Positions 1,500 to 23,358 of a stretch of DNA of 64,000 nucleotides are shown here, in pieces. Every line of letters begins with the position of its first letter. Within the stretch, counting starts at the first letter, position 1. The stretch is from Luteimonas sp. MC1750 (GTDB taxonomy: Bacteria; Pseudomonadota; Gammaproteobacteria; Xanthomonadales; Xanthomonadaceae), in contig NZ_CP067113.1 of assembly GCF_016615955.1 (NCBI RefSeq), positions 2,790,001-2,854,000 on the forward strand, read 5' to 3'. The position numbers and the translations under genes were made by a program. The notes beneath the pieces were generated by a model. The model saw only the letters and a list, made by a program, of their open reading frames with translations, had not been told where the DNA came from and did no database searches.

Positions 1500-3320
1500 T
1501 CAGTGCTGCGAGCGCGGCGCCCGGGTCACCAGCTTGCGCAGGCCCTGGCCGATGCGGCCGAACAGCGAAGGCGACGTGTCCTGCGCCGGAGCGGGAGCGG
1601 CAGGCTGCGACGGCTGCGGCCTGGGTGCATGCGGCTGGCGCGGCGGACGCGCGGCGCGTGGCTGCTCGCCGCCCGCCGCCTGTTCCGTCGCCTGGCCGTC
1701 CTGCGCCGGCTGGCCTTCGCCGTTGATGCGGCGGCCACCACGGCGGCGGCGGCGCTTGCGCGGCGCGCGCTCGCCTTCCGCACCGTCGGCTCCCGGAGTG
1801 GGGGTCCCGGCGACCGGCACCGATGCCTGCGCCGTGCCGGCGCTGGCGGGCGTGGCGATGGCGTCGGGGGCAATGCCGGCGCCCTCTGCCACCGCGCCCA
1901 CGGCGCCTTCGGCAGCCGCTTCGGCCGCCGGCACGCGCGGCTTGCGCGGAGCGCGCTCGCGGCGACCCTCGCCGGCACCGGCGCTGCGCGGGCCACGCGA
2001 ACGGTCACCACCGCCCTCGCGACGACCACCGCCGCGACGCGCATCCTCGGCGGCGCGCTGCTCGCGCGCCTCGCGGAAGATCTCGCTGACGCTCTCGCCC
2101 TCTTCCGGCTCGAGCTCGACGCCCTCGCGCGGCTTGCGCGGCAGCGCCTTCAGCAGCTCCGCGCTCACCGGCTCGGAGGGGATCTTCTGCTCGATGAAGG
2201 CCTCGATGTCCGGCAGGCCGATCGCGTAGCGCTCGCAGGCGAAGCTGATCGCATCGCCCTCTTCGCCCAGGCGCGCGGTGCGGCCGATGCGGTGCACGTA
2301 GTCCTCGGCATCGAACGGCAGGTCGTAGTTGTAGACGTACTTCACGCCATCGATGTGCAGGCCGCGGGCGGCGACGTCGGTGGCGACCAGGATCTCGAGC
2401 TGGCCGGCCTGGAACTTCTTCAGCAGCGACTCGCGCTTCTTCTGCGGCACGTCGCCCGACAGCACGCCCACGCGGTAACCGGCGCGTTCCAGCGCACGGG
2501 CCACGCGCTCGACGAACACCTTGGTGTTCACGAACACCATCGTGCGGGCACCCTCGCCGCGCGAGAGCAGGCCCAGCAGCAGCGGCAGCTTCTCTTCGTC
2601 GGAGGGGTAGTAGAGCTTCTGGCGCACCAGCGCAGCGGTGATGGTCTCGGTCTCGACCACCATTTTCTGCGGCTCGTTCATGTGCTCGTAGGCGAGCTCG
2701 AGCACGCGATGGCTCAGCGTGGCCGAGAACAGCAGCGTCTGGCGCTCGGTGCGCACCGGCATGCGGCGCAGCAGGAAGCGGATGTCCTTGATGAAGCCGA
2801 GGTCGAACATGCGGTCGGCCTCGTCCAGCACGCAGATCTCGCAGGCGTGCAGGCTGACCACCTTGTGCTGCTTGACGTAGTCGATCAGCCGGCCCGGGGT
2901 GGCGATGATGACGTCCACGCCCTCCTGCAGCAGCTGGCGCTGCTTGTCGTAGTCGACGCCGCCGTAGACCAGGGCGAAGCGCAGGCCCAGCTCGGGACCG
3001 AACTTCACCGCGTCCTTGTGGATCTGGATCGCGAGTTCGCGGGTGGGCGCCAGGATCAGCGCGCGCGGGTCCTCGGGCTTGCGGTCGGCCAGCGCCGGGC
3101 GCGTCAGCAGGCGGTTCATCACCGCCACCAGGAAGGCCAGCGTCTTGCCCGTGCCGGTCTGGGCCTGGCCGGCGACATCGCCCCCGGGCAATGCGACCGG
3201 GAGGGTCAGCGCCTGGATCGGCGTGAGGCGCGTGAAGCCTGCGGTCTCGAGGCCGGCCTGCAGCCGCGGATGGAGATCGAAGGAGGAGAAGGTGACGTCG
3301 GTAAGTGGTTTGTCGGTCAT
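1500..3320 (-). CDS. rhlB: DEAD-box ATP-dependent RNA helicase RhlB
   Basis: RNA helicase of the RhlB type, which unwinds structured RNA for the degradosome. The 606 residues begin with a Q-motif ([10 protein letters not shown]...LTPIQ), then motif I AQTGTGKT (53-60), PTREL, TPGRL, DEAD (166-169), FSAT, and the C-terminal helicase motifs ([17 protein letters not shown]). After about residue 400 comes a long low-complexity tail rich in Arg, Gly, Ala and Pro ([27 protein letters not shown]). It makes the protein about 180 residues longer than E. coli RhlB (421 aa) and probably binds RNA. The frame opens 21 codons upstream, but [16 protein letters not shown] is the family start. Divergent from trxA-rho, as in Xanthomonas. 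Confidence 0.93.
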
Positions 3321-3540: not shown

Positions 3541-3867
3541 GTGAGCCAAACCGTCATCCACGCCAGCGACGCCGATTTCGACGCCACCGTCCTCGCCTCG
3601 AAGGAGCCGGTGCTGGTCGACTTCTGGGCGCCCTGGTGCGGCCCCTGCAAGATGATCGCCCCCGCCCTGGACGAGCTGGCCGGCGAATACGCCGGGCGCG
3701 CCAGAGTGGTGAAGATCGACATCGACCAGAACCGCGCCACCGCGCTCAAGTACCACGTGCGCTCGATCCCGATGCTGCTGCTGTTCAAGGACGGCCAGGT
3801 CCAGGCCACCCAGATCGGTGCCGTGGGCAAGCCGGTCCTGGCCCAGATGATCGACAAGGCCCTCTGA
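3541..3867 (+). CDS. trxA: Thioredoxin 1
   Basis: Small cytoplasmic disulfide reductase. The redox motif WCGPC is at residues 32-36, followed by the conserved cis-Pro segment SIPMLLLF. The length of 108 residues is that of E. coli TrxA. It starts at GTG, chosen because a GGAGAA ribosome-binding site ends a few bases upstream and [10 protein letters not shown] fits the family N-terminus. It lies between divergent rhlB and downstream rho. The 220-nt gap to rhlB holds a TTGAAA box (3445-3450) and an AT-richer patch near 3468-3475, which could serve both directions. Confidence 0.96.
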
Positions 3868-19233: not shown

Positions 19234-20262
19234 TCAGGCCCCGGCGCGGCCGCTCCCCAGCGCCAGGGCCGCGCCGAGCAGCCCGGGATTGGGATGCGTC
19301 GCGACCTGGACCGACACCGGCTCCAGGTAGGTCGCGAAGCGGCCCTTGGCGAGGAAACGCTCGCGGAAGGCGCTCGCGCGCAGGAAGGGCAGGAAGCGCG
19401 GCACGATGCCCCCTGCGATCACCACCGCGCGGGCGCCGTGCACCATCGCGACGTCGCCGGCGACGCTGCCGAGGATCGCGCAGAAGCGCGCCAGGGCGCG
19501 GCGGGCCACGAGGTCGTGGCCGTCGAGCGCGGCGGCCACGACCTCCGCCGGGTCGCGCATGGCCCCGTCCGGAGAGGCACGCGGTGCGCGCAGCACGGCG
19601 TCGATGGCCGAAAGGCCGCTGCCGGACAGCAGGCGCTCCCAGGAGGCGCGCCCGTGGCGCGCGGTCGCCCAGTCGGCCAGCGCGCGCTCCTCGTCGCCCA
19701 GCGGCGCGAAGCTGACATGCCCGCCCTCGGTTTCGACCACCTCCCAGCCCTGCTCCGCGCTGCCCACCAGCAGGCCGACGCCGAAGCCCGTGCCCGGTCC
19801 GATCACGCTGACCGGGCCGCGCTCCAGCGCGTGGTCCTGGCCATGCAGGACGACGCGTTCGCCTTCGGCCAGCGCAGGCACCGCGCGCGCGATCGCGCCG
19901 AAGTCGTTGACCAGGCGCAGTTCGTCCAGGCCCAGCGCGTCGCGCAGCTCGTGGCGGTTGAACGACCAGGCGCGGTTGGTGAGGCGCATCTCGTCGCCGC
20001 CCACCGGGCAGGCGAGCGCGATCGCGGCGCGCCGCGGCCGCGCCGCGACGCCGGCGAGGTAGTGCTCGGCGGCGTGCTGCAGGCTGGCGAACCCGGCCGT
20101 CGGCAGCGAGCGGGGCTCCAGCAGGCCGGGCGTGGCCGCACCCGGATCACACAGCGCGAAGCGCGCGTTGGTGCCGCCGATGTCGGCGACCAGGGCGAGT
20201 TCCGCGCCGGCGGGTCGCTGCGGTGCCCCGGAAGGGCTGTCCTGGGTCAGGTTGGGGTCCAT
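19234..20262 (-). CDS. glk: Glucokinase
   Basis: ATP-dependent glucokinase feeding glucose 6-phosphate to central metabolism. It has the proteobacterial Glk N-terminal phosphate-binding motif VADIGGTNARFAL, the sugar-binding LVNDFGAIARAVP with the catalytic Asp, the glycine-rich IGPGTGFGVGLLV, and ETEGGHVSFAPLGDEE. 342 residues, close to E. coli Glk (321). I start at MDPNLTQDS because a GCAGGA ribosome-binding site lies 9-10 nt upstream; an ATG six codons earlier is possible. Downstream of the sRNA and its terminator, so it probably has its own promoter. Confidence 0.93.
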   Translation of the reverse strand: MDPNLTQDSPSGAPQRPAGAELALVADIGGTNARFALCDPGAATPGLLEPRSLPTAGFASLQHAAEHYLAGVAARPRRAAIALACPVGGDEMRLTNRAWSFNRHELRDALGLDELRLVNDFGAIARAVPALAEGERVVLHGQDHALERGPVSVIGPGTGFGVGLLVGSAEQGWEVVETEGGHVSFAPLGDEERALADWATARHGRASWERLLSGSGLSAIDAVLRAPRASPDGAMRDPAEVVAAALDGHDLVARRALARFCAILGSVAGDVAMVHGARAVVIAGGIVPRFLPFLRASAFRERFLAKGRFATYLEPVSVQVATHPNPGLLGAALALGSGRAGA

Positions 20263-20315
20263 GCGCTGATCCTGCCGCATCCGCCGCCGGGGCGCCCGCA
20301 AGAAACCTGCGGGCA

Positions 20316-20440
20316 ATAAAAAGCCCCGCAGGCAGGGGGGGCCGGCGGGGCTGGAGAACGGGGCTCGGGGAGAAGCCGTCGTTCCGGGGTCGATCATCTC
20401 CAGGGGAGGGAGTGATCTGCGACAGACCTTGCATCTGTCA
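20316..20440 (-). ncRNA. sX13-like small RNA downstream of polA
   Basis: The 330-nt gap between polA and glk holds no gene but encodes a leftward transcript of about 120-125 nt that folds into consecutive hairpins. A 5' stem GACAGA/TCTGTC is followed by GATCA-CTCC paired with GGAG-TGATC around loop CTCCCCT, then GGCTT/GAGCC around loop CTCCCC (enclosed by GAACG/CGTTC), and finally an intrinsic terminator with a C-rich loop. Three C-rich loops and the position next to polA are, from memory, features of the Xanthomonas virulence regulator sX13 (about 115 nt). C-rich loops pair with G-rich ribosome-binding regions of mRNAs. A TATAGC -10-like hexamer lies at 20449-20444, without a good -35. The 5' end is an estimate. 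Confidence 0.7.
20318..20352 (-). terminator. Intrinsic terminator of the sRNA / polA
   Basis: Read leftward, AGCCCCGC and GCGGGGCT pair around a loop containing seven consecutive C, followed by TTTTATT. It would end both the sRNA and any read-through from polA before glk. Confidence 0.8.
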
Positions 20441-20592
20441 CGGGCTATATGACCATCGCGCACATGGATGGTTCGTGAAGATCAGCGTTAAGTTTTTGTT
20501 GGATTCAGCCGCCATTTACCACCCGCCAGCCGCGCCTGTCTGCAGCGGACGTGCGGCCCGCATCAGTCCGCCCCGTTCAGGCAGCGCAGGCC

Positions 20593-23358
20593 TCAGTGGG
20601 CCTGCTCCCAGTTGTCACCGAATCCGCTGTCGACCACCAGCGGCACCTTCAGATCGGCGGCCCCGGTCATCCGCGCGACCACCCCCGCCAGCAGGGTGTC
20701 GACGAAGTCGGCATCGCACTCGAACACCAGTTCGTCGTGCACCTGCAGGATCATCAGCGCGCGGTCGGCGCGGTCGGCCAGCCAGCCGTCAACCGACACC
20801 ATGGCGCGCTTGATGATGTCGGCCGCCGTGCCCTGCATCGGCGCGTTGATCGCGGCGCGCTCGGCGCCCGCGCGCTGGGCCTGGGTGCCGCGGCTGATGT
20901 ACTCCAGGTACAGGCGGCGGCCGAAGACGGTTTCGACATAGCCCTGTTCGCGCGCCTGGGCGCGGGTGCGCTCCATGAAGTCCCGCACGCCGGGATAGCG
21001 CGAGAAGTACAGGGCGATGTAGTCCTGCGCCTCGCCGCGCGAGATGCCGAGGTTGCGCGCCAGGCCGAAGGCGCCCATGCCGTACATCAGGCCGAAGTTG
21101 ATCGCCTTGGCCGCGCGCCGCTCGTCGCCGGTGACCTCGTCGATGCCGCGGCCGAACACTTCCGCGGCGGTGGCGCGGTGGATGTCCGCGCCGCCGGCGA
21201 AGGCCGTGAGCAGGCCGTTGTCCTGCGACAGGTGGGCCATGATCCGGAGTTCGATCTGCGAGTAGTCGCAGGCCACGATCTTCCGCCCGGGAGGCGCGAT
21301 GAAGGCGGTGCGGATGCGGCGCCCGTCCTCGGTGCGGATCGGAATGTTCTGCAGGTTGGGATCGCTCGACGCCAGGCGCCCGGTGGCGGCGCCGGCCTGC
21401 TGGTAGCTGGTGTGCAGGCGGCCGGTTTCCGGGTTGACCATCTCCGGCAGCTTGTCGGTGTAGGTGCCGCGCAGCTTGGCCATGCTGCGGTAGTCGAGGA
21501 TCACCCTTGGCAGCTCGTGGAGTTCGGCGATGGCCTCCAGCGCCTCCTCGTTGGCCGAGGGCTGGCCCTTGGGCGTCTTCACCAGCGTCGGCAGCCTGAG
21601 TTCGTCGTAGAGCAGCGCGCAGACCTGCTTGGGCGAATCCAGGTTGAAGCTTCGGCCGGCCAGCGCGGTCGCGCGCTGCTGCAGCTCGAGCATGCGCCGG
21701 CCGAGCTCGGCGCCCTGCCGGCGCAGCTCGTCGCCGTCGAGCAGCACGCCGTGCGCCTCGACCCGCGCCAGCACGTCGACCAGCGGCATCTCGATGTCGC
21801 GGTACACCGGCTGCAGGCCCGGCTCGGACTCCAGCCGCGCCGAAAGCACGCGGTGCAGGCGCAGGGTGACGTCGGCGTCCTCGGCCGCATAGCGCGTGGC
21901 GTCGTCGATGGCCACCTGGGAGAACGGGATCTGCTTCGCGCCCTTGCCGGCGACGTCGGTGTAGGCAAGCGTCTGGTAGCCCAGCTCGCGCCGCGCCAGC
22001 GAGTCCATGTCGTGGCGCGCACGGCCGGAGTCGAGCACGAAGCTTTCCAGCAGGGTGTCGTCGGCATAGCCGGCCACGCGGACGCCATGGCGGCGCAGCA
22101 CGTGCAGGTCGTACTTGCCGTTCTGGCCGACCTTGCGCACGCCGGGGTCTTCCAGCAGCAGACGCAGCCGCTCCAGTGCCTGCGCGCGGTCGAGCTGGGC
22201 GGGCGCACCGGGATAGTCGTGCGCCAGCGGAAGATAGGCGGCGTGGCCGGGTTCGGCGCACACGCTCAGGCCGACCAGGTTGGCGCGCAGCGGGTCGAGC
22301 GAATCGGTCTCGGTGTCGAGCGCGAAGACGCCCGCTTCGCGCAGGCGCGCGATCCAGGCCTCGAGCGCCGTGGCGTCGAAGATCGTCTCGTGGCGCCCGG
22401 CAACCGCAAGCGCCGGGTCCAGCGCAGCGGCGTCCGGAGCCGCCGCCGGCGCGACGAAGCCGGTCCCGGGCCGCGCGATCGTCGCCTTCGCCGGCACCAC
22501 GCCGTTGGCGCTGCCGCCGTCGAGCTCCCTCAGCGCCTGCCCGAAGCCGTAGCGCGCGTAGAAGGTGCGCAGCGTGTCGACGTCGGGTTCGCGCAGCGCG
22601 AGGTCGGTGGGCCCGGCCTCGAGCCCGACGTCGGTGCGGATCGTGGCCAGCGTGCGGTTCAGCGGCAGGCGCTCGAGCGCCGCGCGCAGGTTGTCGCCGA
22701 CCTTGCCCTTGATCTCCGGTGCGGCGGCGATGACGCCGTCGAGCGTGTCATGCGCCGCGAGCCACTTGGCGGCGGTCTTGGGCCCGCACTTCTCCACGCC
22801 GATGATGTTGTCGACGCTGTCGCCCATCAGCGCCAGCAGGTCGACGATCTGGTCGGGGCGCACGCCGAACTTCGCGAACACCGCCTCGTCGGAATCGGTG
22901 CGGCTGCCGCTCATCGTGTTGACCAGCGACACGCCGGGCCGCACCAGCTGGGCGAAGTCCTTGTCGCCGGTGGAGATGGTGACGTCGATGCCCTGGGCGG
23001 CCGCATCCAGCGCCAGCGTGCCGATCACGTCGTCGGCCTCGACGCCGGGCACGCGCAGGATCGGCATGCCGAGCGCTTCCACCACGTCGCACATCGGCTG
23101 CACCTGCGCGCGCAGGTCGTCGGGCATGGGCGCGCGGTTGGCTTTGTATTCGGGATACAGGTCGTCGCGGAAGGTGCGACCGGGCGCGTCGACCACAAAG
23201 GCCACGTATTCCGGCTGTTCCTTCAGCGTCGCGCGCAGCATGTTGACCACGCCGAACAGCGCGCCGGTCGGCTCGCCTTCGGCGTTGGTCAGCGGCGGCA
23301 GCGCGTGGAAGGCGCGGTAGAGGTAGGAGGAACCGTCGATCAGGACCAGGCGTTTCAT
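20593..23358 (-). CDS. polA: DNA polymerase I
   Basis: Repair and Okazaki-fragment polymerase. The 921 residues show all three domains: N-terminal 5'-3' exonuclease (LVLIDGSSYLYRAFHA, PGVEADDVIGTLA, STGDKDFAQLV), an intact 3'-5' proofreading domain (FALDTETDSLDPLRANLVG; ADDTLLESFVLDS; YAAEDADVTLRL), and the polymerase (motif A VACDYSQIELRI, O-helix RRAAKAINFGLMYGMG, motif C LQVHDELVFE). Length and order match E. coli Pol I (928). A TAGAAT hexamer 6 nt before the ATG predicts a leaderless mRNA. Divergent from the DUF2782 lipoprotein. Confidence 0.98.
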   Translation of the reverse strand: MKRLVLIDGSSYLYRAFHALPPLTNAEGEPTGALFGVVNMLRATLKEQPEYVAFVVDAPGRTFRDDLYPEYKANRAPMPDDLRAQVQPMCDVVEALGMPILRVPGVEADDVIGTLALDAAAQGIDVTISTGDKDFAQLVRPGVSLVNTMSGSRTDSDEAVFAKFGVRPDQIVDLLALMGDSVDNIIGVEKCGPKTAAKWLAAHDTLDGVIAAAPEIKGKVGDNLRAALERLPLNRTLATIRTDVGLEAGPTDLALREPDVDTLRTFYARYGFGQALRELDGGSANGVVPAKATIARPGTGFVAPAAAPDAAALDPALAVAGRHETIFDATALEAWIARLREAGVFALDTETDSLDPLRANLVGLSVCAEPGHAAYLPLAHDYPGAPAQLDRAQALERLRLLLEDPGVRKVGQNGKYDLHVLRRHGVRVAGYADDTLLESFVLDSGRARHDMDSLARRELGYQTLAYTDVAGKGAKQIPFSQVAIDDATRYAAEDADVTLRLHRVLSARLESEPGLQPVYRDIEMPLVDVLARVEAHGVLLDGDELRRQGAELGRRMLELQQRATALAGRSFNLDSPKQVCALLYDELRLPTLVKTPKGQPSANEEALEAIAELHELPRVILDYRSMAKLRGTYTDKLPEMVNPETGRLHTSYQQAGAATGRLASSDPNLQNIPIRTEDGRRIRTAFIAPPGRKIVACDYSQIELRIMAHLSQDNGLLTAFAGGADIHRATAAEVFGRGIDEVTGDERRAAKAINFGLMYGMGAFGLARNLGISRGEAQDYIALYFSRYPGVRDFMERTRAQAREQGYVETVFGRRLYLEYISRGTQAQRAGAERAAINAPMQGTAADIIKRAMVSVDGWLADRADRALMILQVHDELVFECDADFVDTLLAGVVARMTGAADLKVPLVVDSGFGDNWEQAH

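Follow-up and report, generated by a model that had tools for sequence, protein, structure and literature searches.

sX13 between polA and glk in Luteimonas sp. MC1750 and its possible relatives across the Gammaproteobacteria

The small RNA sX13 is stated, in the excerpts of PMC3771888, to be exclusive to Xanthomonadaceae and always located downstream of polA. In Luteimonas sp. MC1750, the gap between polA and glk had been predicted from its letters to hold an sX13-like RNA with three C-rich loops, which was viewed as a Xanthomonas virulence RNA. The locus raises three questions: whether the element is sX13, which of its parts are conserved, and how far its relatives extend. We integrated covariance models, alignments, promoter patterns and gene neighbourhoods, starting from the 64-kb stretch around the locus (64,000 nucleotides, hereafter the window).

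Identity and structure of the element

The covariance-model search returned RF02232 (sX13) at 20430-20317 on the minus strand, scoring 71 bits (cut-off 50; E 3.1e-11). This was the sole Rfam family over its gathering score in the 64-kb window; RF01719 (ErsA) and RF02837 (anti-hemB) had no match there at their cut-offs, and a search of the whole genome with RF02232 found sX13 in single copy. Our model R3 (see below) matched 20441-20317 (-) with 95.1 bits and, with hits admitted up to E 10, matched nowhere else in the window. As predicted, the RNA (20430-20317) lies in the gap between polA, encoding DNA polymerase I (20593..23358, minus strand), its conserved upstream neighbour, and glk, encoding glucokinase (19234..20262, minus strand; start at 20262 or 20280), and all three share a strand. 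As a neighbour of sX13, glk is not conserved. The glk frame in the list of open reading frames (19234-20463, minus strand, GTG at 20463) spans the whole sX13 gene, so an automatic longest-frame gene caller would bury the RNA inside glk; two ATGs in the same frame, at 20280 and at 20262, are likelier start candidates than 20463.

Read leftward, the element folds largely as proposed. Folding and alignment placed, all on the minus strand, hairpin 1 (20392..20417) with the loop CTCCCCT (20408-20402), hairpin 2 (20355..20385) with CTCCCC (20372-20367), and the terminator hairpin with its U-tract (20317..20352). The terminator loop had been described as seven C; the run does contain seven, but the first of them pairs, leaving the loop CCCCCCT (20340-20334). 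Compared with dinucleotide shuffles, the fold reached z -4.05 for the 114 nt matched by Rfam, and -5.23 once the nine upstream bases that complete a 5' hairpin were included. Together, the RF02232 and R3 matches delimit a gene at 20317..20439 (minus strand, 5' hairpin to terminator U-tract) with a predicted primary transcript of ~123 nt. The interval originally proposed, 20316..20440, holds this RNA structure (to 20439), whereas the promoter reaches 20474 and lies outside it. Judged by its covariance score, its place next to polA and its C-rich loops, the element is an authentic sX13 and an ordinary member of its family.

Covariation, the 5' hairpin and the promoter

Conservation was assessed on 55 family rows taken from the window and from loci L061-L114; most genera supplied one row, and seven of the rows are second copies or second genomes. 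Alignment A1 (n = 55) contained 45 of these rows and ten further genus members; second copies, divergent rows and contig-edge rows (L066, L068, L083, L085, L086, L087, L088, L106, L112, and L114) were left out beforehand. Across 35 pairs, 95.7% of the cells in A1 were paired compared with 87.8% in shuffles, and 0/500 shuffles reached the observed values; as the shuffles ignore relatedness, such values are not probabilities. Two-sided changes occurred in 29/35 stem pairs. The C-rich loops, by contrast, were near-invariant: UCCCC in loop 1 (50/55), UCCC in loop 2 (55/55) and CCCC in loop 3 (55/55). The alignment thus answers which parts are conserved, namely the loops, and absence of loop conservation, which had been named as grounds for refuting the prediction, was not what we found.

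This structure also bears on whether the RNA is anything but a readthrough 3' piece of the polA mRNA, terminator included and without function. Its place fits such an origin, since polA precedes it on the same strand in 50/55 family rows. However, the hairpins ahead of the terminator covary, the RNA has a conserved promoter of its own, and no polA was present within the retrieved 1.5-kb flank of L066, L083, L086, L087, and L112; moreover, deletion phenotypes in Xanthomonas are given in excerpts of PMC3771888. We regard mere readthrough as extremely improbable.

Unprompted, RNAalifold recovered from A1 the three known hairpins and a further hairpin on the 5' side, with its left arm upstream of the 5' end reported in the literature. 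In the window, this hairpin (20421..20439, minus strand) consists of GACAGA (20439-20434), a loop with GCAA, and TCTGTC (20426-20421). In A1, 96.4% of its cells were paired, with two-sided changes in 6/8 pairs (one of the eight, pair 5:19, was added by hand), and GCAA was present in 55/55 rows. Among the 55 family rows, GCAA occurred in 52; the three rows lacking it (L085, L086, and L114) were among those left out of A1 beforehand. An alignment-free count of the six outer pairs, anchored on GCAA, gave 96.2% paired in the family (1000 shuffles: 82.5%, best 86.2%) and 97.3% in a second family of the order, f12 (shuffles: 90.2%, best 93.0%), in which the anchor was present in 31/31 rows. These comparisons suggest that sX13 carries an extra, covarying 5' hairpin that would start ahead of the published 5' end; the latter maps to 20430, within the hairpin loop.

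The same inverted repeat could instead serve a dimeric regulator as its DNA operator, with the true start at 20430. The published 5' end sits exactly there, and the repeat is symmetric. Nor does wobble pairing settle the matter: helix 1 held 55 G-U and 8 A-C cells, yet 11 and 6 without the innermost pair, which lends weak support, and we rejected this asymmetry as proof that the repeat acts as RNA. Against an operator, a start at 20430 would leave the -10 element about seven bases too far upstream, and between families the arms are swapped for other complementary letters while the loop GCAA stays unchanged. A further argument comes from Pseudomonas PA7, where the ErsA RNA measures 130 nt from hairpin base to terminator, fitting the 132 nt published for ErsA (excerpts of PMC5819304); the ErsA RNA thus appears to carry the 5' hairpin as well. 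We consider the operator improbable and retain the RNA hairpin. At the PA7 locus (L310, 3702-3840, minus strand), where Rfam names Pseudomon-1/ErsA, R3 matches from 3840 onward and covers the 5' hairpin; the Rfam match sets in 23 bases later, at 3817, so the Rfam ErsA model seems to lack this hairpin. The Rfam models for both sX13 and ErsA seem to be truncated at their 5' ends.

Upstream of the hairpin, the column profile of the family points to a putative sigma-E-type promoter (20448..20474, minus strand) consisting of GAACCA (20474-20469), 16 bases, and TCATA (20452-20448). The commonest upstream letters read GAAC(C/T)A-16 bases-TCATA in the family (f1) and (G/C)AACTT-16 bases-TCTAA in f12, the GAAC...-N16-TC layout being that of sigma-E promoters, as in the Escherichia coli sigma-E consensus. 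A strict pattern, GAAC(T/C)(T/A)-N15-17-TC(T/A), was found in 30/55 family rows (0.25 expected from shuffles keeping base composition only, as throughout), 21/29 genus rows (0.14 expected) and 3/30 f12 rows (0.11 expected); a loose pattern was found in 32/55 family rows (1.02 expected) and 22/30 f12 rows (0.61 expected). The distance from the -10 element to the hairpin base would suit a start at that base, the published 5' end lying about nine bases further on. The strict pattern also preceded 10/30 rpoE genes, and rpoE of the window genome has GAACTT-N16-TCATA upstream, with GGTCATAT identical to sX13. In g18 (L013) the promoter elements were degraded, so control of sX13 may differ there.

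These letters suggest that the promoter of sX13 is of sigma-E type. They could also be read as a housekeeping promoter, served by the main sigma factor and an activator, with the GAAC box as the activator site instead of a sigma-E -35. Many family rows indeed have AT-rich letters (CATATAG/TTATAT) at -10, the -35 departs from GAACTT, and Xanthomonas sX13 is termed constitutively expressed in excerpts of PMC3771888, which nevertheless report a rise with salt, 37 C and minimal medium. However, the 16-base spacing is constant across families, the TCATA -10 is common to sX13 and rpoE of the window genome, and GAACTT-N16-TCT/TCA stands ahead of relatives in the class (strict pattern in 16/25 and 34/52 places of the two sets described below); in addition, Pseudomonas ErsA is driven by AlgU/sigma-22 according to extracts of PMC8395346. 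We therefore favor sigma-E-type control and judge a housekeeping promoter unlikely. In the Xanthomonas literature searched, sX13 and RpoE were mentioned together only through a reference-list entry (sX13) and a table row for rpoE4.

Relatives within the order, the class and the phylum

At E 0.001, RF02232 matched 284/297 genomes drawn from the family (239/297 above the cut-off) and 50/52 genomes of the genus. Elsewhere in the order it matched 34 genomes, 31 in f12, two in f4 and one in f11. In f12, polA was upstream on the same strand in 27/31 rows; three of the others (L123, L148, and L153) lie at contig edges, and L127 had no polA in 8 kb. Model R1, built from family sequences alone with the 5' hairpin included, gave 53-77 bits on the 31 f12 sites, and model R2, trained on the order, found 121/200 order genomes compared with 70/200 for the Rfam model. 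Several genomes held neighbouring copies: four in G663 (L236), four in G770 (L237), three in L114 (g49), and two each in G022 (L085/L088), G565 (L170/L191), L181 and L188, those of G663, G770, g49, G022, and L188 lying near polA. Within one f12 genus, second copies away from polA (L142 in G467, L143 in G440, and L146 in G428) had two CCUCCCC loops, a different 5' part and R1 scores of 37.8-49.6 bits, and are possibly paralogues.

In the class draw, R2 matched 29/369 genomes, 24 of them outside the order. Outside the order 30 places were listed, 25 of which we checked: polA was upstream on the same strand within ~1.5 kb in 18/25, on the other strand in one and absent in six, and the strict promoter pattern was present in 16/25. 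None of the 20 R2 loci outside the order that were scanned with Rfam reached the sX13 cut-off. Model R3, trained on the R2 matches, matched 142/369 class genomes at E 0.001, and the other 227/369 had no match. A draw of 388 genomes from the phylum, 34 rows of which were listed, gave 14 matches, two of them outside the class, and the seven loci from this search (L399-L405) had no polA in the retrieved flank. Such a distribution is broader than the label of a Xanthomonas virulence RNA allows, and the presence of sX13 in almost all family genomes argues for a core role in stress or translation over virulence as such.

Because R3 was trained on R2 matches, the model may have drifted; gene order next to polA, used in no search, serves as a check. 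We examined 52 R3 places absent from training, 12 given as loci and 40 taken across the ranking. polA was in reach in 36/52, with the sRNA downstream on the same strand in 35/52, and the strict promoter pattern was present in 34/52 (0.19 expected), including 11 of the 16 places without polA. Since the models were built without reference to polA or the promoter, many R3 places are likely true relatives.

The link to Pseudomonas ErsA was examined with published ErsA oligonucleotides (extracts of PMC7565897), which led to 47 stretches, all titled Pseudomonas. polA was just upstream in 45/47, and a looser promoter pattern was present in 46/46 stretches with a recognisable start (0.64 expected). 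R3 matched the ErsA site in 27/27 loci scanned among the 47 stretches, with 26.3-36.7 bits. Scores carry less of this case than place, promoter and 5' hairpin do, because R1 gave the PA7 ErsA site 21.1 bits and R3 gave the unrelated E. coli control GcvB 18.9 bits. Taken together, these comparisons suggest that sX13 has relatives, probably including ErsA, far outside the one family that was believed to hold it.

RF02837 (anti-hemB) coincided with R2/R3 sites in 7/80 Rfam-scanned loci (L186, L240, L267, L284, L399, L400, and L401), of which only L186 and L267 had polA in reach. The L186 site (1500-1602, minus strand) also had below-cut-off matches to ar14 (alphaproteobacterial, 29.2 bits) and to the Betaproteobacteria toxic sRNA (27.2 bits), RNAs with CCUCC-type loops, which we take to reflect a shared motif or convergence.

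Convergence could account for more than this one site: the relatives outside the order might be independent sRNAs with C-rich loops collected by model drift, leaving only the order's sX13 as one family. The training of R3 on R2 matches, the GcvB and PA7 scores, the 16/52 new places without polA in reach and the 5/7 anti-hemB sites likewise lacking it are all compatible with that reading. It leaves unexplained why, at 35/52 places absent from training, the RNA follows polA on the same strand, and why the promoter recurs so far above expectation, even where polA is missing. We hold wholesale convergence to be doubtful. On balance we lean towards sX13, ErsA/Pseudomon-1 and anti-hemB as branches of one ancient gammaproteobacterial sRNA family. 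Its members would have a sigma-E promoter, an origin downstream of polA, a 5' hairpin and C-rich loops resembling an anti-Shine-Dalgarno sequence; two to four neighbouring copies would occur in some lineages, and the published sX13 start would be a cleavage site in the 5' loop. Our confidence in this grouping is lowered by the anti-hemB sites without polA.

The Rfam tables show no clan for the three RNAs, and no text joining sX13 and ErsA was found in the literature searched, which most subscription papers fall outside, so the link may already be published. The window element itself belongs to a catalogued family, and its broader value is as an entry to a wider one: what has been presented as an RNA confined to Xanthomonadaceae looks like a single branch of a family of stress-promoter sRNAs that spans the class. 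If so, results would transfer both ways, the sigma factor and inducing conditions from ErsA and the loop mechanism from sX13.

G-rich targets and comparison with known RNAs

Excerpts of PMC3771888 describe the loops of Xanthomonas sX13 as repressing mRNAs with GGGG near the start codon, including hfq and pilH, and the RNA as acting without Hfq. Of 30 genomes, 25 had GGGG no more than 30 bases from the hfq start, and 17 had it upstream at -14 to -7; hfq of the window genome has it at -11 to -8, and its codon 4 is GGA, not the GGG of the Xanthomonas-type site. Among the controls, GGGG occurred at 1/29 rpoE starts and at 5/33 window genes, the latter called crudely; in no case did it occupy the Shine-Dalgarno position. 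Codon 4 of hfq was GGG in 19/29 genomes with glycine there compared with 27/240 other hfq glycines; as the genomes are related, neither these counts nor those of the G-run are independent. Predicted loop-hfq duplex energies were not significantly lower than those of shuffled leaders, 40, 54, and 109 of 500 shuffles being as low.

We infer the following course of events, which as a whole we consider probable. Under envelope stress, a sigma-E-type promoter would drive a free-standing, polA-linked sRNA of four hairpins, starting near 20439, ending with the terminator at 20317 and measuring ~123 nt. Its C-rich loops would pair with G-rich ribosome-binding sites or start codons and block translation, hfq being a likely target. 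The 5' hairpin would probably shield the 5' end, and cleavage in its loop may yield the published 115-nt form.

Compared with described systems, the element resembles sX13 of the Xanthomonadaceae (RF02232) in its score over the cut-off, its polA place, its three C-rich loops and its terminator. It differs from described sX13 in its fourth, 5' hairpin, its putative sigma-E-type promoter and its neighbour glk, and from Xanthomonas sX13 in that the hfq G-run falls at the Shine-Dalgarno position and not at codons 3-4. With Pseudomon-1/ErsA (RF01719) it shares the polA locus and the sigma-22/sigma-E-type promoter layout (GAACTT-N16-TC in ErsA), as well as the 5' hairpin and a C-rich terminator loop. 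Unlike in sX13, the loop of hairpin 1 is not C-rich in PA7, and ErsA is Hfq-dependent according to excerpts of PMC7264166, whereas Xanthomonas sX13 is not. Anti-hemB (Burkholderia RNA 7) resembles sX13 through its Rfam match on R2/R3 sites and its CCUCCC loop; its Rfam model has 81 positions and lacks the 5' hairpin.

In E. coli, the gene on the polA strand between polA and yihA is that of Spot 42 (spf), an RNA regulated by CRP. Spot 42 had no Rfam match in the window. The best R3 match in the E. coli region scanned falls on spf with 16.4 bits (filters off); among eight other E. coli sRNA regions, GcvB scored 18.9, CyaR 14.2 and MicA 12.3 bits. As the score does not single out Spot 42 from a control sRNA, we rejected it as a homologue; ErsA was first seen as its functional orthologue, as extracts of PMC8395346 state. 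Beyond the phylum, Staphylococcus aureus RNAIII and Helicobacter HPnc5490 are described in excerpts of PMC3771888 as also directing C-rich loops at G-rich or ribosome-binding regions; they belong to other phyla and other loci, and their likeness to sX13 is one of mode of action, not of kinship.
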